Below, piece by piece: positions 16,717 through 30,840 of a stretch of DNA of 33,024 nucleotides. How positions within the stretch are numbered: position 1 is the first letter of the stretch; each line of letters opens with the position of its first letter. The notes beneath the pieces are model-generated. The model did not search any database and had not been told where the DNA came from. It saw only the letters and a program-made list of their open reading frames with translations. This stretch comes from an uncultured cyanobacterium (GTDB taxonomy: Bacteria; Cyanobacteriota; Cyanobacteriia; Cyanobacteriales; Microcystaceae). The DNA is taken from assembly GCA_903869185.1 (NCBI GenBank), contig CAIPYC010000199.1, positions 1-33,024 of the forward strand, given 5' to 3'. A program made the position numbers and the translations under genes.

Positions 16717-18306
16717 TTATTTCCTCTCTAAGGTCCAAAAAGGAAAAGTTTGGTTCGGGTTTATTGCGACACCGTGCAGATTATTTTGAGCAAAGGCGTA
16801 ATCTTTGCTTTGCCAAAGAGGAATATAGGGGACATCATGAGCAATGAGTTTCTGAATTTGTATGAAAGTTTTCTGGCGTAATTTGGGATCTTGCTCCTTT
16901 CTTTCTCGATTAAGTAATTCGTTCATCTTGCTACTGTAGTAAAAAGAGCCTTGACTCTGGGATCCACCTTTTTGACATCCGTTTACAGATGAGCCACTAG
17001 AACAGAATAAAAAAGGATAGACATAATTATCTGCATCCAGAAAATCAGGATACCAATTAGCTATAGAGCTACTGTAGATACCTTCGGATATATTATGAAA
17101 AAATGCTGCTGATGCTATACTTTTAGGCTCAAAAATGAGCATTCCTTCTAAATCTTTTTTGGCCAAGGCTCTGAGCAAGGCGGCTAAAAGACTTGAATTA
17201 AGTGAGCCGGAACTATACCATATCTCAACATTGGCAGGTTCACTACTGGAAAAGCCTGCTTCAATTAGCAGTTTTCGGGCTAAAGCAATATTTTGTTTGC
17301 CAAAGACGGCTCTAGAGACTCCAAAGCTATCAGGAATCAGACTGTATACTGGCTCGCCCTGTCCTTGCAGGATCCGTTGAACCAAGAAAGGTCGATCAAT
17401 CATTGCCCCAATAGCCTGTCGAACCTTAAGAGCTTTTAGTGGGTTCATAAGCAGATTGAGACTGAGATAATTGATTGCAGAACCTCTACCTTCAATGATT
17501 TGCAATTTTTTATTCTTTGAATAATCAGACTGTAGTTTTGCTACCTGCTGGGTTGCTAGGGCTTGATAGGCAACATCGACTGTACCAGTTATTAGGGCAT
17601 TGTAGAGATTTGCAGGATTACCTGGGTAAATCTGCACCAATAATTTTGTATTTTTTGGTTTTCTACCCCAGTATTTAGCAAAGGCTTCTAGACGTATATG
17701 ATCACTGGTAATCTCCAAAAGCCTATAAGGGCCAGTACCAACAAACTTAGCGGGATTGAACTTTCCTTCCCCTATTTGATAGGCAATTGGTGAAATTGCA
17801 CAAGTACCTGGAAAAGCCAATAGGGCCGGGAAAGCGGCAAAGGGTTGTTTCAGTCGAAGTGTCAATTCATAGGGGCCAGTCGGCTCTATCTTTTCCAATG
17901 TTTCTGAGAGAAGAAATGAAGGAGCTCCTCCATTTTTGATAAAGCGCCGAAGACTAAAAGCCATAGCCTTGGCGTTGAAGGCAGTTCCATCATGAAAAAG
18001 CACTCCTTTTCTAAGTTTTATCCTATAGGTCAATCCGTCATCGCTGACCTCTGGGAAATTTTCAGCCAATTGTGGCTTAAGTTTTGTAGTGCCCAGTTCG
18101 TAGGTATAAAGAGTATCTCCCAAATTGTAGATGATCATAAGACTGGCTAGATCATAGCTATCAGCAGGGTCGACTCCTCGGGGGCTCAGTGTAGTACCTA
18201 AAGTGATGGGGCGATTAAGGCTCTTTGGTCCCGGCTGAGACTGACAACCTACCAGCAACAATGGTACTAATAACAGGAAAATACCAGAACTTCTCATTTT
18301 TGACAT
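16717..18306 (-). CDS. ABC transporter substrate-binding lipoprotein, peptide/nickel (family 5) type
   Basis: 529 residues. The N-terminus is a lipoprotein signal ending in the lipobox LLVGC (Cys 21 acylated), so the protein is tethered in the periplasm. The body shows the family-5 solute-binding pattern: SPRGVDPADSYD early, LTYRIKLRKGVLFHDGTAFNA near 95-115, PTGPYELTLRLKQPFAAFPA, FNPAKFVGTGPY, and IAHDVPYIPLWQSKDY at the end. Ligands in this family include oligopeptides, nickel and glycosides; the ligand here is not decided. No permease or ATPase gene is nearby. The start overlaps the methyltransferase gene by 13 bases, so translation is coupled. Confidence 0.93.
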   Translation of the reverse strand: MSKMRSSGIFLLLVPLLLVGCQSQPGPKSLNRPITLGTTLSPRGVDPADSYDLASLMIIYNLGDTLYTYELGTTKLKPQLAENFPEVSDDGLTYRIKLRKGVLFHDGTAFNAKAMAFSLRRFIKNGGAPSFLLSETLEKIEPTGPYELTLRLKQPFAAFPALLAFPGTCAISPIAYQIGEGKFNPAKFVGTGPYRLLEITSDHIRLEAFAKYWGRKPKNTKLLVQIYPGNPANLYNALITGTVDVAYQALATQQVAKLQSDYSKNKKLQIIEGRGSAINYLSLNLLMNPLKALKVRQAIGAMIDRPFLVQRILQGQGEPVYSLIPDSFGVSRAVFGKQNIALARKLLIEAGFSSSEPANVEIWYSSGSLNSSLLAALLRALAKKDLEGMLIFEPKSIASAAFFHNISEGIYSSSIANWYPDFLDADNYVYPFLFCSSGSSVNGCQKGGSQSQGSFYYSSKMNELLNRERKEQDPKLRQKTFIQIQKLIAHDVPYIPLWQSKDYAFAQNNLHGVAINPNQTFPFWTLERK

Positions 18307-18917
18307 TGGATTACCTGTAGACTGCCGCCAGCATATAGTTTTTCTCTTATCTCGCGATAACCAGTTGACTCGAGCAATTGCTTTAAATCAGTATTGAGAA
18401 ATTGCCTGGCGGTTTCTGTTTCAAATAAAAAAATAAATAGACTTAAAGCCGGCCAGACAAGAGAATTTATAGGGCGGTGAAGATCTAGAAAGACAAAATA
18501 TCCTCCAGGTCTTAAAACTCGATAAACTTCCCTAAATATCTGTTCCAATTCGACCAAATCCATCTCGTGCATAGCAACACTACTGTGGACAATATCAAAG
18601 CTGGAATCATCAAATGGTATATCCTGAGCCAGAGCTTCGACATATTTGGCTAAAGGCACCAATCTAGCTGCCCTCTCAAGAGCTCTAGCAGATGCATCTA
18701 GCCCTGTTACATTAGGAAAACTCTGTATTAGGTATTGAGTGGCCTGACCACCTCCACAGCAAAGATCTAGAACCCGACTCTCTCTAGAAAGTCTTAGCTC
18801 TTGGAATGGCAAAAAGTGAAATAGCTTTTCTCCCCCTATCATGGAGGCAGCGACAAAGGAGATACCGTTATAAAGAGCAGGAAACTGATAGCTCCATTTT
18901 CTTAGAATCGTAGCCAC
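18294..18917 (-). CDS. Class I SAM-dependent methyltransferase
   Basis: 207 residues with motif I VLDLCCGGGQATQYL near residue 50, acidic motif LDASARALERA, and FDIVHSSVAMHEMD and VLRPGGYFVFLDLHRP for motifs III-IV. This resembles methyltransferases of the UbiE/type-11 kind. Substrate unknown. The GTG start at 18917 is supported by an AGAGGA ribosome site 8 bases upstream. It overlaps the ABC binding-protein gene by 13 bases, an odd pairing. A hydrophobic stretch (VWPALSLFIFLFE, near residue 160) could dock it to the membrane. Confidence 0.88.
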   Translation of the reverse strand: MATILRKWSYQFPALYNGISFVAASMIGGEKLFHFLPFQELRLSRESRVLDLCCGGGQATQYLIQSFPNVTGLDASARALERAARLVPLAKYVEALAQDIPFDDSSFDIVHSSVAMHEMDLVELEQIFREVYRVLRPGGYFVFLDLHRPINSLVWPALSLFIFLFETETARQFLNTDLKQLLESTGYREIREKLYAGGSLQVIQCQK

Positions 18918-19011
18918 AAATAAGTCCTCTTGTTCGGGTCTTGTGTTGTTGGCAAGCCTTGATTTAGATATTCATTTTACCGAAAAGATCCCAAGATATG
19001 TCACTGTATTT

Positions 19012-19170
19012 TTCATCTGTTGTGGAGAGAAATTGACAGGAATTGACCATAACCCCCATCGTCATCAAGTGGTAGAGATACCTCCAACACAAGGTTCCCT
19101 ATATTCTCTGATATTTACCGGGATAAGTGGGACAATTTTGTTGAGAGCTTTGGATTTACCGACTGGATAG
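19012..19170 (+). pseudogene. IS66-type transposase relic (zinc-finger segment)
   Basis: An in-frame stretch reads FICCGEKLTGID, RHQVVEIPP, then GTILLRALDLPTG before a stop. This matches the order of the N-terminal zinc-finger region of IS66 transposases (CxxCG..L.GI, then RQVxxIPP, then GT..RA.LPxG). The rest of the transposase is absent and part of the Cys pattern is lost, so it is a decayed fragment. It ends 64 bases before the NOS promoter. The flanks 18918-19011 and 19171-19233 hold nothing else I can identify. Confidence 0.6.
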
Positions 19171-19233
19171 CGCAATGGACTTTTAAGCATATAAGCAGTA
19201 AGTCAATCTAGAGCGAATATCATTGTATATTAA

Positions 19234-19263
19234 TTGACAGGTATAATAATTCTTTGTTATTAT
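19234..19263 (+). promoter_or_regulatory. Sigma70-type promoter of the NOS gene
   Basis: A perfect TTGACA at 19234-19239 is followed, after 18 bases, by TATTAT at 19258-19263, one base off consensus. It sits about 57 bases before the preferred ATG at 19321. This also argues that the in-frame TTG at 19234 is the -35 box rather than a start codon. Confidence 0.6.
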
Positions 19264-19320
19264 AGTATTGCCTTATGTTTATTTAAAGCACAAGCAATTT
19301 CAATTAATCGATGTTTTTCT

Positions 19321-20499
19321 ATGAAATTCGTAAAAATAAACTTTAATTTCTCAAAAAATAGAAGTTTACTTTCTGAAAGTTTAGAGCTACTATCATTACT
19401 AGAAACTGAATCTTTATTAAAAATCCCTAAATTTAAACGTTTTTCAGAAATAAAAAATCAAGTTAATAATACTGGAACTTATTGGCAAACTGTTGATGAA
19501 TTATCTTATGGAGCTAAAATAGCATGGCGAAATAGTACCAGATGTATTGGACGAAACTATTGGCAATCCCTAGAAGTTCGAGATCGTCGAGATTTGAACA
19601 ATCCACATGAAATATTTGATGCTTTGGTAGAGCATTTAGAATTAGCTACAAACAATGGACGAATCCGTCCGTTTATGACTGTCTTTAGACCTCAAAAACC
19701 TAATCATCCAGGTATCAGAATTTGGAATGAACAATTAATTCGCTACGCAGGTTATAAACAATCTGATGGTTTTGTAATTGGTGATCCAAAAAATATAGAA
19801 TTTACCAAAATGGTTAAACAAATGGGATGGAAAGGTGCTCAAGGTACTCCTTTTGATATTTTGCCAATTGTTATCCAAATGCCTAGTCAAGAACCTGAAA
19901 TGTTTGAGTTACCTCCGAGTGTAGTACTTGAGGTGCCAATTCAGCATCCTGAATATCCTTGGTTTGCTGAATTAGAACTGAAATGGCATGCAGTACCGTT
20001 GATAAGCAATATGATGCTTGATGTTGGCGGAATAAAATATACGGCAGCCCCTTTCAATGGCTGGTATATGGGCACTGAAATTGGATCACGGAACTTTGGA
20101 GATAAATCCCGTTATAATCTATTACCTATTATTGCAAAAAAAATACATTTGAATAATTTTCAAAATCATCGGACATTGTGGATAGATCGATCTTTAGTAG
20201 AATTAAATATTGCCGTTCTATACTCATTTCATCAAGCTGGCGTAACTATCGTTGATCATCACACAGAAAGTTACAATTTTATAAAATTCGAGAAAAAAGA
20301 AAATTCAAATCAGAGAACTGTTTATGCAGATTGGTCTTGGATTGTACCTCCAATGTCTGGTTCTGCAACTCCGGTTTTTCATCGTACTTATCAAAACATT
20401 GAACTAAAACCCAATTTCTTCTATCAACCTGACCCTTGGCTACCATATGACTCTCAATATAAATCCAAATCTTCTTGTCCTTTTAAATTTAAACTTTAA
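19321..20499 (+). CDS. nos: Stand-alone bacterial nitric oxide synthase oxygenase
   Basis: A 392-residue NOS oxygenase domain, which would oxidise L-arginine through N-hydroxyarginine to citrulline and NO. The haem-thiolate site is AWRNSTRCIGRNYW, with Cys 75 as axial ligand. The arginine-binding Glu is E253 in NGWYMGTEIGSRNFGDKSRY. The pterin-side DWSWIVPPMSGSATPVFHRT closes the domain. No calmodulin site, reductase or globin domain follows, so electrons must come from a separate flavoprotein, as in Bacillus NOS. The frame is open back to a TTG at 19234, but that region is a promoter. Codons are heavily A/T at third positions (TTA, AAA, AAT), more so than the neighbours, and an IS66 relic lies upstream; both suggest acquisition by transfer. 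Confidence 0.95.
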   Translation: MKFVKINFNFSKNRSLLSESLELLSLLETESLLKIPKFKRFSEIKNQVNNTGTYWQTVDELSYGAKIAWRNSTRCIGRNYWQSLEVRDRRDLNNPHEIFDALVEHLELATNNGRIRPFMTVFRPQKPNHPGIRIWNEQLIRYAGYKQSDGFVIGDPKNIEFTKMVKQMGWKGAQGTPFDILPIVIQMPSQEPEMFELPPSVVLEVPIQHPEYPWFAELELKWHAVPLISNMMLDVGGIKYTAAPFNGWYMGTEIGSRNFGDKSRYNLLPIIAKKIHLNNFQNHRTLWIDRSLVELNIAVLYSFHQAGVTIVDHHTESYNFIKFEKKENSNQRTVYADWSWIVPPMSGSATPVFHRTYQNIELKPNFFYQPDPWLPYDSQYKSKSSCPFKFKL

Positions 20500-20547
20500 A
20501 CCTTTATCATTTATCATTTTTATATTTGAAAATTCCTAGCTCAATAC

Positions 20548-21027
20548 ATGGCCAATATATATAATCTAGAGCAGCTCAATGAGATCATTCGAAAAGATCC
20601 CCAACATTGGCGTCCATTGGTTTTTACCAACGGTTGCTTTGATCTTTTGCACCTGGGCCATATAAGATATCTAGAAACTGCAAAAAGCTTAGGTAATAAA
20701 TTGATTGTAGGAGTTAACAGTGACCAATCGGTAAATCAGATTAAACCGAACAAAGGACGTCCCATTATACCTGAACTACAAAGGTTAGAAGTTCTAGGTT
20801 CCTTGCGCTGTGTCGATGGTGTTGTCCTCTTTGCGCAAAAAACCGCAGATGAATTGATTAAGGTGTTGCAACCTGATATCTATGCCAAAGGAGGCGATTA
20901 CAATATCCAAACCCTGCCTGAAACCTCTAGTGTTGCTAAATATGGCGGAAAAATAGAACTGATCAACATAGAAGTTCCCACCTCCACCAGTAAAATCATC
21001 GAAAAGATCCGTGACGCTTGTTTTTAA
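20548..21027 (+). CDS. Heptose-phosphate adenylyltransferase-like protein (RfaE2/HldE C-domain type)
   Basis: 159 residues of a cytidylyltransferase-fold nucleotidyltransferase: VFTNGCFDLLHLGHIRYLE contains the HLGH nucleotide site, followed by GVNSDQSV, GRPIIPELQRLEVL and YAKGGDYNIQTLPE. This corresponds to the C-terminal domain of HldE, which activates D-glycero-beta-D-manno-heptose 1-phosphate with ATP. The stand-alone form is common where the kinase is separate. No other heptose genes are in the window. The gene resumes normal codon use after the AT-rich NOS gene. Confidence 0.88.
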   Translation: MANIYNLEQLNEIIRKDPQHWRPLVFTNGCFDLLHLGHIRYLETAKSLGNKLIVGVNSDQSVNQIKPNKGRPIIPELQRLEVLGSLRCVDGVVLFAQKTADELIKVLQPDIYAKGGDYNIQTLPETSSVAKYGGKIELINIEVPTSTSKIIEKIRDACF

Positions 21028-21074: not shown

Positions 21075-21767
21075 ATGCTTGACCTTGCCCAGCTTGAAAA
21101 TCAACTCGCCCAGGAGTCAGAAAAAAATCAACTTCAATTGATTGCCAAGTTAGAAACTCTTGATTCATCTGGCTTGGATGTTTTGGGCAAATTTCTTCTG
21201 TCTCAGAAAGATAAGGGATCCAATCCCGCTATTGGCAAGGCCTATCAAATACTTTACCAAGCTCAAACACCCGAAACCTTGACCCTTCTATCAGAAAATT
21301 TTCCCTGTGGCATTGTGCCGCTTGTTTCTGAGCGGGGTATTGATTACCTTGAATTGCAAAGGTTTTTGGCCGATAGGGATTTTCAACAGGCCGATACCCT
21401 TACTAGGATTAAAATGTGTGAATTGGCTGGAGAGGGAGCTATCAAACGAAAATGGGTCTATTTTACCGAGGTCAAGCAATATCCTGCAGCTGATCTCAAT
21501 ACTTTAAATTCTCTCTGGTTGAACTATTCAGAAGGTAAGTTTGGCTTTTCAATTCAGCGTAATCTCTGGATATCGGTCGGTAGAGACTATAACAAGCTCT
21601 GGCCTAAGATCGGTTGGAAAAACGGTAATAGCTGGACCAAATACCCCCATGGGTTTACTTGGGATTTATCTGCTCCAGTAGGACATCTCCCTCTGCTCAA
21701 TCAACTTAGAGGAGTCAGGGTAACTGATGCCATTTTTACACACCCACTATGGTACCAAAAAGTATAG
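21075..21767 (+). CDS. gun4: Mg-chelatase activator Gun4
   Basis: 230 residues, close to the ~233 of full-length cyanobacterial Gun4. The N-terminal helical domain (1 to about 80) precedes the porphyrin-binding domain, which has GIDYLELQRFLADRDFQQAD, TRIKMCELAGEGA, RKWVYFTEVKQYPAADL, LWPKIGWKNGNSWTKYP and GHLPLLNQLRGVRV. Gun4 binds protoporphyrin IX and Mg-protoporphyrin and stimulates the ChlH/I/D chelatase. The match over both domains and length sets it apart from the many other proteins that merely carry a GUN4 domain. It lies just upstream of two vipp1-like genes. Confidence 0.93.
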   Translation: MLDLAQLENQLAQESEKNQLQLIAKLETLDSSGLDVLGKFLLSQKDKGSNPAIGKAYQILYQAQTPETLTLLSENFPCGIVPLVSERGIDYLELQRFLADRDFQQADTLTRIKMCELAGEGAIKRKWVYFTEVKQYPAADLNTLNSLWLNYSEGKFGFSIQRNLWISVGRDYNKLWPKIGWKNGNSWTKYPHGFTWDLSAPVGHLPLLNQLRGVRVTDAIFTHPLWYQKV

Positions 21768-21878: not shown

Positions 21879-22634
21879 ATGACTCTTTTTGATCGCATCA
21901 GTCGAGTTCTCCGCGCTAACATTAACGACCTCGTCAGTAAAGCTGAAGATCCCGAAAAAATCCTTGAACAAGCTGTAACGGATATGCAAGAGGATCTGGT
22001 ACAACTGCGCCAGGCAGTAGCCAGAGTCATTGCCGAACAGAAAAGATCCCAGATGCAATATGATCAAAACCAGGAAGAAGCGCAAAAATGGCAGGAAAGA
22101 GCGCAATTGGCTATTACCAAAGGAGACGAATCTCTAGCTAGAGAAGCTCTGGTACGTAAAAAAACTCATGCCGATACTGCTGGAATCTTGAAAACCCAAT
22201 TAGAACAGCAAACCTCTCAGGTTGATACATTAAAGCGCAATTTGATTGCCTTAGAGGGTAAAATTCAAGAAGCCAAAACCAAAAAAAGTATGCTCCAAGC
22301 GAGATCTCAAGCCGCTAAAGCATCAGAAGCTCTTCAGAATACTCTTGGTAATATTGGAACCAGCAGCGCAACGGGAGCTTTTGAGAGAATGGAGAACAAG
22401 GTCATTGAAGCTGAAGCACGTTCTCAAGCCGCAGCTGAATTGGGTGGCGTAGGAATCGAGCGACAATTTGCTGAATTAGAAGGCTCTGATGACGTCGAGA
22501 AAGAATTGGCTCAGCTCAAAGCCGCATTGGTGCAGCCAAGCTTGCCGCCGGCAGAAACCAAGACTCATGAGGCATCTGGTCCAGTAATCGATAGTGAACT
22601 TGATCAATTGAAAAAAGCGCTTAAAGACTCCTAA
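21879..22634 (+). CDS. vipp1: Vipp1/IM30 membrane-remodelling protein, copy 1
   Basis: 251 residues of the PspA/IM30 fold: amphipathic helix 0 (MTLFDRISRVLRANINDLV) that inserts into membranes, then the long coiled-coil hairpin (about 25-145) with EDPEKILEQAVTDMQEDL, then FERMENKVIEAEARSQAAAE. After a flexible linker it keeps a C-terminal helix (DSELDQLKKALKD) characteristic of Vipp1, which forms rings and rods and is needed for thylakoid maintenance. A second paralogue starts 39 bases after the stop. Together with gun4 upstream this forms a thylakoid-biogenesis cluster. Confidence 0.93.
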   Translation: MTLFDRISRVLRANINDLVSKAEDPEKILEQAVTDMQEDLVQLRQAVARVIAEQKRSQMQYDQNQEEAQKWQERAQLAITKGDESLAREALVRKKTHADTAGILKTQLEQQTSQVDTLKRNLIALEGKIQEAKTKKSMLQARSQAAKASEALQNTLGNIGTSSATGAFERMENKVIEAEARSQAAAELGGVGIERQFAELEGSDDVEKELAQLKAALVQPSLPPAETKTHEASGPVIDSELDQLKKALKDS

Positions 22635-22673
22635 AGACCATATCCATTATCCAAATCAGAAAACTGAAAGAAT

Positions 22674-23435
22674 ATGTCATTATTCGATCGTATTGGGAGA
22701 ATCTTTCGAGCCAACGTCAGTGATCTAATTAGCAAAGCTGAAGATCCCGAAAAAATTCTGGAACAAGCTGTGATGGATATGCAAGATGACCTGGTTAAAC
22801 TGCGCCAGGCAGTGGCCAGGATCATTGCTGAACAAAAGAGATCTCAAATGCAATATAGCCAGAATCTGGAAGAATCTCAAAAATGGCAACAAAGAGCTGA
22901 GCTGGCTTTGGGTAAAGGAGATGAGACACTTGCTAGAGAAGCGCTGATCCGTAAGAAGACATATAACGATACGGCTCTAGCATTCAAGAGCCAACTAGAA
23001 CAGCAAGGCACTCAGGTTGATAGTCTCAAGCGCAGTTTGATTTCTCTAGAAAGTAAAATTCAACAGGCCAAGACTAAAAAAAATCTCCTCCAAGCGAGAT
23101 CTCAAGCCGCCAAGGCTTCTGAAGCATTGCAGAATACCTTGGGTAACATGAGTACTGGTAGTGCTACTGCTGCTTTTGAGAGAATGGAAAACAAGGTCAT
23201 CGAGTCCGAATCACGCTCTCAAGCTGCTGCCGAATTGGCTGGACTGGGGTTAGAACAGCAGTTTGCCTCACTCGAAGGCTCTAGTGAGATTGAGGATGAA
23301 TTAGCCAAGATGAAAGCCACTCTTTCGGGAAGTTCCCCTGACCAGCAAGCCTTAAATGCCTACAATGAAAAAGCTGGTTCTAATCCGAGATATGATGAGT
23401 TCAAATCCAGCAAAGATAATCCAAAAGATCTCTAG
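22674..23435 (+). CDS. Vipp1/PspA paralogue, copy 2
   Basis: 253 residues, closely similar to the preceding gene through the helical core (EDPEKILEQAVMDMQDDL, AKASEALQNTLGNMSTGSAT, FERMENKVIESESRSQAAAE). The two are a tandem duplication. The C-terminus differs: after the core it ends in a polar tail (AGSNPRYDEFKSSKDNPKD) with no ELDxLKKxL helix. It therefore resembles PspA in length of conserved core but with a novel tail. It could co-assemble with copy 1 or act as a separate stress-response form. Cotranscription with copy 1 is likely from the 39-base gap. Confidence 0.92.
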   Translation: MSLFDRIGRIFRANVSDLISKAEDPEKILEQAVMDMQDDLVKLRQAVARIIAEQKRSQMQYSQNLEESQKWQQRAELALGKGDETLAREALIRKKTYNDTALAFKSQLEQQGTQVDSLKRSLISLESKIQQAKTKKNLLQARSQAAKASEALQNTLGNMSTGSATAAFERMENKVIESESRSQAAAELAGLGLEQQFASLEGSSEIEDELAKMKATLSGSSPDQQALNAYNEKAGSNPRYDEFKSSKDNPKDL

Positions 23436-27154: not shown

Positions 27155-28537
27155 ATGACTACCAATGAAAATATTGAAAACGTAGTAATTATAGGCTCAG
27201 GACCTGCCGGTTTAACAGCTGCTATCTATGCCGCCAGGGCTAATCTTAAACCTGTTGTTTTGGAAGGTTTGAGCGCTGGCGGATTGCCTGGTGGTCAGTT
27301 GATGACCACAAATGAGGTTGAAAATTTCCCAGGTTTTCCAGAGGGTATCACTGGACCTGATTTGATGCAGAGGATGAAAACTCAAGCTCAGCGGTGGGGA
27401 AGCCAATGCTACCTTGAGGATGTAATTAGCGTTGATCTCAAGCAAAGGCCATTTATAATTAAAACTGCTGAAAGAACTATCAAAACCCACGGACTTATTG
27501 TAGCCACTGGAGCTACCGCTAAGCGTTTGCAATTGCCAAGCGGCGAACTCTACTGGAACAATGGGATTTCAGCTTGTGCTATTTGTGATGGTGCTACCCC
27601 TTTCTTTAGGGGTGTAGAATTGGCAGTTATCGGAGGAGGAGATACAGCGGCAGAAGAGGCAGTATATCTTACCAAATACGGCTCAACAGTTCATTTAATA
27701 GTCAGAAGAAATGAAATGCGCGCCAGCAAGTCGATGCAAGAAAGAGTGCTGCAAAATCCCAAAATTATAGTGCATTGGAATAAAGAAATTCTTGATGTTT
27801 ATGGAGATGGATTGCTACTCAAGGGAATCAAGCTACTCGATAAAGAGACTCAACAACAACAAGATCTCCCGATTGCAGGACTTTTCTTTGGTATCGGACA
27901 TACCCCCAATACTGCTATATTTAACAATCAACTGGAATTAGACCAAGGTGGCTATCTAATTGTCAAGCCCGGTACAGTAGAAACTTCAGTCGCTGGGGTC
28001 TATGCAGCAGGAGACATACAAGATTATTATTATCGTCAAGCTGTTACTGCAGCAGGCACCGGATGTATGGCAGCACTTTCGCTTGAGCGTTGGTTATCAG
28101 AACATAACTTAATCCAAGAATATCAGCAAGTTCAAACAAATCCCCAAGAATCATCTGGTCAAGCTAAAAAACAAAGCGAACAAGTTGAATTCGATCCAAG
28201 AGAAACTAATTACTATGGAGGTTATGCCTTGCGTAAGCTCTTTCATGATAGTGAACGATTGTTAATAGTCAAGTATATTTCGTCTTCATGCGGTCCTTGC
28301 AAAGCTCTTAAACCCATACTGGAGAGACTTGCCCAAGAATATCAAGGCAAGATACACCTGGTGGAAATTGACATAGAAGCCGATCCCGAAATAGCTCAGA
28401 TGGGGCAGGTCACAGGAACTCCGACGGTGCAATTTTTCCAAAATAAAGAATTAATTAAAGAAATCAAAGGTGTCAAAGGAAGTAACGAGTTCAAAGAAAC
28501 AATAGACGCGCTTCTTACGTCCTATGCCAAAACTTAG
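27155..28537 (+). CDS. ntrC: NADPH-thioredoxin reductase with fused thioredoxin domain (NTRC)
   Basis: 460 residues. Residues 1 to about 320 are a low-molecular-weight thioredoxin reductase: FAD site [16 protein letters not shown], redox pair C141/C144 in [17 protein letters not shown] site [16 protein letters not shown], and the second FAD motif [12 protein letters not shown]. After a Gln/Ser-rich linker (about 325-345) residues ~355-460 form a thioredoxin with [11 protein letters not shown] (C379/C382) and GTPTVQFF. The fusion is the NTRC type that reduces 2-Cys peroxiredoxin and tunes photosynthetic enzymes in cyanobacteria and chloroplasts. The symbol here means NTRC, not the nitrogen regulator. 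Confidence 0.95.
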
Positions 28538-30456: not shown

Positions 30457-30840
30457 TTATTTTAAAATTTTATAAATGCAACCAGAAGTACAAGTCTCCA
30501 GAATTTCTACCGCTTCTAGTCCTGGCAGTCCTGCAAGTTCTAGTTTTTCATAGATCCAGCGGGCTAATTCTTCACTAGTGGGGTTTTCTAGTTGGGTTGA
30601 TTCATTAAGGTAAAAGTGATCTAAGTAATTCTGCCTTATCGGCTCTATATAGGATTTAATCAAGCCAAAATCCATCAACATTCCCTCTTGGGGACCTGAT
30701 GATTGAAGTTGATTTCCCTTGATATAGACCCTGCCCACCCAGCTATGTCCATGTAAGCGACGACATTTGCCGTCATATTTGGGCAGTATATGTGCTGCCT
30801 CAAAACGAAATTCCTTGTATATACTCCACTGCGATTGCAT
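30457..30840 (-). CDS. queD: 6-carboxytetrahydropterin synthase (QueD) family
   Basis: 127 residues of the PTPS/QueD T-fold. Zinc-binding histidines are in FEAAHILP and LHGHSWVGRVYI; the catalytic Cys is in GKCRRLHGH; LMDFGLIKSYIEPI and the ENPTSEELARWIYEKL segment with its Glu follow. QueD makes 6-carboxytetrahydropterin for queuosine in tRNA; paralogues act in tetrahydrobiopterin synthesis. It is followed after 10 bases by the DUF1517-like gene. Because the window also encodes a pterin-dependent NOS, the choice between QueD and PTPS deserves attention, but no residue seen here decides it. Confidence 0.88.
   Translation of the reverse strand: MQSQWSIYKEFRFEAAHILPKYDGKCRRLHGHSWVGRVYIKGNQLQSSGPQEGMLMDFGLIKSYIEPIRQNYLDHFYLNESTQLENPTSEELARWIYEKLELAGLPGLEAVEILETCTSGCIYKILK

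Follow-up and report, generated by a model that had tools for sequence, protein, structure and literature searches.

The nitric oxide synthases (NOS) of Bacillus are oxygenases without a reductase and are reported to take electrons from flavodoxins, perhaps from several unspecific partners (PMC3005942). A globin–oxygenase–diflavin reductase enzyme, SyNOS, is known from Synechococcus PCC 7335 (PMC6104048; PMC12922734), with a Val-to-Ile change at the gate residue noted in the first of these sources, and NOS with a fused N-terminal [2Fe-2S]/FNR reductase are known from Microcoleus and Crinalium (PMC3701330). Oxygenase-only cyanobacterial NOS were described as cluster I by Correa-Aragunde et al. 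2018 (PMC6104048), where Calothrix PCC 7103 appears among the cyanobacterial NOS bearers; the membership of its NOS in cluster I may be inferred from its stand-alone frame.

The gene considered here lies on a 33,024-nucleotide stretch (the window), the entire contig of a 2.76-Mb genome (205 contigs, 96.6% complete) from an uncultured member of the Microcystaceae, and the contig is taken to be cyanobacterial because its other genes include, by profile searches, those for CP47, HmpF, GUN4 and two PspA/IM30 proteins. A sequence-only reading of the window had proposed a stand-alone NOS oxygenase and called NOS uncommon in cyanobacteria. The novelty was overstated, the oxygenase-only kind having been known since 2018 and stand-alone-sized frames being present in seven of 388 sampled genomes of the order, although the difference from the multi-domain PCC 7335 enzyme stands; the window gene adds an apparently transferred case to a kind already known.

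The oxygenase, its active site and its relatives

The 392-residue protein read from ATG was assigned to Pfam NO_synthase (PF02898) at E 1.1e-161, covering profile positions 5–361 of 362, with no other domain in the Pfam scan, and the frame stops after the oxygenase domain with no fused reductase; NCBIfam returned no family for the protein at E 0.001. Among solved structures, 81 distinct sequences match at E ≤ 0.001, the top one being 2flq (E 2.6e-128), a bacterial NOS that we take to be from Geobacillus. An AlphaFold model built on a 21-row alignment (mean pLDDT 84.1), the modelling that the earlier reading had proposed, found B. subtilis NOS 4d3i as its first-ranked structure (TM 0.87/0.94). 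With its best hits inside the NOS family, the gene is confirmed, at the level of sequence and modelled fold, as a genuine, intact stand-alone NOS oxygenase, and it is the single copy found in the genome.

The residues Cys75 (haem ligand), Trp69 (haem-stacking), Glu253 (substrate-binding) and Trp340 (pterin-stacking) are all present, their roles presumably being as in other NOS, with Trp340 taken as the equivalent of nNOS Trp678. Cys75 and Glu253 had been named and correctly numbered from the letters alone, and neither varies in the 119 other NOS aligned after removal of duplicates and fragments; the pterin Trp, left by that reading for an alignment or model to confirm, is Trp340. Of 67 columns conserved at ≥95% in this set (columns with at least 80 rows filled), the window protein keeps 66, with one deviation. 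The gate position is occupied by Ile228, presumably equivalent to B. subtilis Ile218 and nNOS Val567, and Ile at this gate slows NO release in bacterial NOS. As in zinc-less bacterial NOS, residues 1–38 of the window protein hold no Cys, the zinc pair of animal NOS therefore being absent.

In common with Bacillus and Geobacillus NOS, the window protein has the fold, the active-site residues, the Ile gate and the absence of a reductase, at 48% identity to B. subtilis NOS by structural alignment and 50–55% to nine Bacillota rows. SyNOS likewise has a NOS oxygenase domain and an Ile gate (PMC6104048), the latter present in 16/16 SyNOS-like rows, whereas its N-terminal globin and C-terminal diflavin reductase are lacking in the window protein. 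Sorangium-type NOS, in which a reductase is fused in frame, shares just the oxygenase domain, the N-terminal [2Fe-2S]/FAD/NAD reductase of that type being lacking here.

The NOS phylogeny proposed by the sequence-only reading was run with 77 rows and with 42, the latter being the same set without its long rows; both trees omit duplicate loci, short fragments and some of the loci from actinobacteria and elsewhere, the larger still contained two identical pairs, supports are ultrafast bootstrap/SH-aLRT, and roots are midpoints. In both, the window NOS pairs with that of G339, another genome of the order, and the two are next joined by those of Nostoc sp. C052 (plasmid pC052_E) and Calothrix sp. 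PCC 7103, forming a fully supported stand-alone cyanobacterial group (100/100 with 77 rows, 100/99 with 42) that places the window NOS with the oxygenase-only cyanobacterial enzymes, cluster I. The nearest relative is 70.8% identical in protein sequence; the Calothrix and Nostoc NOS, likewise of a single oxygenase domain, are 63–64% identical. That the stand-alone cyanobacterial NOS all form a single group was not supported, the nine such rows standing together at 75/62 in the 77-row tree and at two changes, with p-AU 0.08, in the 42-row tree. SyNOS-like rows form a separate 100/100 group, and the cyanobacterial rows with a fused FNR fall beside those of Sorangium and Polyangium, at a distance from the window NOS.

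Of 388 genomes sampled from the order, 42 have NOS, as do 17 of 386 sampled from the phylum, with 13 of these 17 above cut-off; the two samples overlap, count fragments and include the genome studied here. Stand-alone-sized frames (390–455 residues) occur in the seven genomes mentioned above, namely that of the window (G000), G339, G174 (two copies), G327, G238, G050 and G186, a count that excludes G006 (481 residues, two internal stops), fragments (G191, G261, G298 and the second places in G366 and G240) and five frames of 638–838 residues, judged by length to be cut or partial multi-domain genes. A second class, in which the NOS domain is C-terminal in the rows examined, comprises frames of 1,175–1,221 residues and a single shorter one of 1,093; one long frame of this class, scanned fully, holds EF-hand, FNR-like and NOS domains, with a BFD-type [2Fe-2S] match just under cut-off. 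A third class, of about 1,430–1,740 residues, has about 470–500 residues before the NOS domain and at least 500 after it in the rows examined; ‘SyNOS-like’ is used here as a label by frame length, PCC 7335 being absent from the named rows. Taken together, the frames suggest that NOS comes in three size classes within one cyanobacterial order.

Several features were observed at the other NOS loci. In four stand-alone NOS (L040, L042, L043 and L045, from G174, Desmonostoc, G238 and G186) the pterin Trp is replaced by Arg (three) or Met (one), and the gate position holds Val (three) or Ala (one); this Trp is kept in 85/85 rows outside the three cyanobacterial NOS classes, and its loss suggests a changed pterin site. 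G174 carries an MFS transporter–NOS unit of 2,764 bases twice on one contig, the two units being 99.9% identical, and its NOS looks mobile. A small protein of 164–185 residues lies beside NOS of two architectures, with another of the same kind about 7 kb from NOS in G174; GAF matches were obtained in all three of these small proteins that were scanned, and a role as NO or redox sensor is possible. In G050 a separate globin gene directly follows the stand-alone NOS, like a split SyNOS globin–NOS fusion. NOS is also encoded on three putatively viral IMG/VR contigs of 125–165 kb (L136, L137 and L138).

Genomic setting and signs of transfer

The features of the window and of the compared loci are collected in the table. 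The TTG from which the open frame can also be counted coincides with the start of the −35 hexamer in the best promoter-like site, and because of this overlap ATG is the likelier true start. That site, with a TG, scores highest between 18900 and 21100, a scan which returned nine sites against 8.4 expected by chance, and is suggestive without being proof. Palindromes of the motif that we took to be NtcA-type number five in the window, a count at chance level, with none near NOS.

Table. Coordinates of the NOS gene, its neighbourhood and features at compared loci (window positions unless a locus is named)
Feature	Position	Strand	Basis or remark
Class I SAM methyltransferase, upstream neighbour of NOS	18294–18917	−	profile searches
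Apparent insertion scar	18918–20547		see text
IS66-family transposase remnant, 23 residues	19018–19086	+	plasmid-record matches
D12-class DNA adenine methylase N-terminal remnant, about 41 codons	19068–19190	−	plasmid-record matches
Promoter-like site TTGACA-18-TATTAT, with TG	19234–19263	+	upstream of ATG; 11/12 positions
Open frame counted from TTG	19234–20499	+	
NOS oxygenase from ATG	19321–20499	+	Pfam, structure match, model
Haem-ligand Cys75 codon	19543–19545	+	alignment; Cys in 119/119 other NOS
Gate residue Ile228 codon	20002–20004	+	alignment, structure match
Substrate-binding Glu253 codon	20077–20079	+	alignment; Glu in 119/119 other NOS
Pterin-stacking Trp340 codon	20338–20340	+	alignment
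rfaE2-type D-glycero-beta-D-manno-heptose 1-phosphate adenylyltransferase, downstream neighbour	20548–21027	+	profile searches; congener match
GUN4-like protein	21075–21767	+	Pfam; after rfaE2 in congener G271 too
Tandem PspA/IM30-family genes, perhaps vipp1 and pspA	21879–23435		
Thioredoxin reductase joined to thioredoxin, one frame, NTRC-like	27155–28537		
PTPS gene	30457–30840		NCBIfam, QueD
Nostoc sp. C052 plasmid pC052_E NOS cluster	L031 10807–25044		
Calothrix sp. PCC 7103 NOS cluster	L056 2900–9086		
MFS transporter–NOS units (G174)	L040 7878–10641; L041 9390–12153		
Small protein beside NOS	L042 8836–9381; L043 8400–8894; L048 8874–9431		
Small protein of same kind (G174)	L040 18017–18523		
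Stand-alone NOS followed by globin gene (G050)	L044 14469–16535		

Third-position G+C of the NOS gene is 0.209, compared with 0.299–0.441 for the 24 further frames of the window that were treated as genes; it is similarly low in the G339 gene (0.236) and not low in the Nostoc (0.485) and Calothrix (0.433) genes, and a low value can have causes other than transfer. Upstream of the gene, the IS66-family remnant matched seven plasmid records at E ≤ 1 (best E 5e-7), five of them annotated as IS66, and was also compared with a complete IS66 protein, Pfam finding nothing on the 75-residue frame that carries it. The D12 methylase remnant matched nine plasmid records, all cyanobacterial, at 46–59% identity (best E 3e-8), its Pfam MethyltransfD12 match (E 0.028) lying below cut-off; Pfam alone would miss the first remnant and leave the second sub-cut-off.

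NOS is absent from both congeners searched (one of three genomes of the genus has it) and present in three of 50 genomes of the family, the NOS of the other two grouping with the SyNOS-like rows in the tree. In G271, a congener without NOS, an rfaE2-type protein is 81–82% identical to that of the window and the rfaE2–gun4 order is kept; DNA similarity between the two genomes begins at 20557, just inside rfaE2, and upstream of NOS synteny is lost. G337, the second congener, was searched for rfaE2 without a match. The window and G339 NOS genes are 78.6% identical in DNA over 1006 bases, with the window flanks (403 bases before the gene, 201 after) unmatched in the 20-kb G339 stretch. The interval between the two direct neighbours of NOS is read as a probable insertion scar, no empty site having been seen in G271 or G337.

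The window NOS looks to have been acquired by gene transfer, because of its low third-position G+C, its absence in congeners, and the IS66 and D12 methylase remnants upstream. Carriage by phage was rejected, as just two phage records match the NOS, both labelled Staphylococcus and at about 45% identity. The proposal of the sequence-only reading that NO made among thylakoid genes acts near photosynthetic electron flow is weak: the gene sits in the apparent insertion scar, its direct neighbours encode a methyltransferase and a heptose adenylyltransferase, G271 has rfaE2–gun4 without NOS, and the neighbourhood says little on function since the gene looks transferred.

Electron supply and the likely role of the enzyme

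The same reading had held that NOS must use a shared flavoprotein as its redox partner, a claim weakened by the gene content of the genome. The single match to Flavodoxin_1 (PF00258) is a 590-residue flavodiiron-type protein and the single match to NAD_binding_1 (PF00175, FNR-family) is of PetH type and carries a CpcD domain; with these families neither a stand-alone flavodoxin nor a diflavin reductase was found, and the direct donor may consequently be a [2Fe-2S] ferredoxin and no flavoprotein, Fer2 (PF00111) giving six matches. Globins (PF01152 and PF00042) were likewise not found in the genome. Synechococcus elongatus, searched as a control, was positive for PF00258, PF00175 and PF00111 and negative for both globin families, for which other controls were positive; the genome-wide search took in PF00258 for flavodoxins and PF00175 for FNRs, as distinct from thioredoxin-reductase-type FNRs, and, at 96.6% completeness and with 205 contigs, the assembly could lack a flavodoxin or globin by chance. 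With flavodoxin and diflavin reductase not found, elimination leaves a [2Fe-2S] ferredoxin, with photosystem I or PetH as its reductant, as the likeliest donor, the thioredoxin reductase–thioredoxin of the window being a possible alternative. Flavodoxins reported as support for Bacillus NOS (PMC3005942) set that system apart from this genome, where PF00258 revealed none of the stand-alone kind. The PTPS gene of the window was rejected as a pterin gene for NOS, the NCBIfam match above cut-off being QueD, and a tandem PTPS lies elsewhere in the genome.

It is probable that the gene encodes a functional bacterial-type NOS oxygenase of cyanobacterial cluster I and was gained horizontally along with fragments of mobile DNA, the donor probably being a different cyanobacterial lineage. 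The protein would act as a haem-thiolate homodimer, its reduced pterin being tetrahydrobiopterin-like or tetrahydrofolate, and would oxidise L-arginine via N-hydroxyarginine to citrulline and NO; electrons would be drawn from carriers of general use in the cell, of which [2Fe-2S] ferredoxin, reduced through photosystem I or PetH, is the most likely. Release of NO would be slow because Ile228 narrows the exit, and, given that no globin was found, the NO would not be converted to nitrate as proposed for the PCC 7335 enzyme. By analogy with bacterial NOS, the likeliest use of the NO would be a stress-protective or signalling dose.

The sister genes in Nostoc and Calothrix stand in a shared multi-gene setting, whereas the window NOS lacks those genes and has mobile remnants upstream. 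Over the stretch compared for both, six genes in common order, encoding an SDR of the male-sterility/NAD_binding_4 type, NOS, a second SDR, a desaturase, a class III aminotransferase and an SRPBCC protein, are 76–86% identical between the two, and the Nostoc cluster continues with genes for a GNAT, an acyl-CoA dehydrogenase, a glycosyltransferase, a formyltransferase and a DevBCA-type exporter; from its gene content this looks to be a NOS-fed biosynthetic cluster, and NOS may feed a specialised pathway there. Actinobacteria offer established cases of NOS-fed biosynthesis (PMC10831120; PMC7109123), the former source being a genome-mining paper on actinobacterial clusters in whose available text the word stem ‘cyanobacter’ is absent. 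No literature on such a cyanobacterial cluster was found among the matches listed, subscription journals being mostly outside the scope. As a marker in the order, the cluster SDR proved uninformative, since generic SDRs match it in 197 of 388 genomes at E 1e-60, with 40–45% identity among the matches listed.

That the window NOS was orphaned from such a pathway, and supplies NO or a nitrogen oxide to a product whose remaining genes have been lost or sit elsewhere, would fit the setting of its sister genes and the actinobacterial precedent and is nevertheless unlikely: no linked biosynthetic genes are present in the window, just NOS among its frames matches the Nostoc or Calothrix stretch, the G339 and Nostoc stretches have nothing in common beyond NOS and, distantly (25%), an ABC ATPase, and the second SDR of the cluster is unmatched in the genome at E 1e-60, in a test that mostly detects generic SDRs. 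Slightly less probable again is a transferred gene that is unexpressed or without selected use; the deviant codon use, the mobile remnants and the absence from the two congeners searched are what it would predict, but the gene is intact at 70.8% protein identity to its nearest relative, 66 of 67 conserved positions are kept, and the best promoter-like site of the scanned stretch lies just upstream. Least probable is scavenging of nitrogen from arginine to nitrate as proposed for PCC 7335, where the reaction is the same, SyNOS-bearing E. coli grows on arginine (PMC6104048) and some other stand-alone cyanobacterial NOS adjoin MFS-family transporters, a role made less likely here because no globin domain was found in the protein or, with PF00042 and PF01152, in the genome, and disfavoured also by the want of an NtcA-type palindrome near NOS.

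For the preferred reading of a horizontally gained cluster I oxygenase, a possible, if rather doubtful, extension is that the acquired enzyme is driven directly by photosystem I-reduced [2Fe-2S] ferredoxin, with neither flavodoxin nor NOS-type reductase. Were this the case, NO output would track light and the redox state of the acceptor side. With or without this extension, the old question of the reductant of bacterial NOS becomes testable in one small genome in which no flavodoxin was found.
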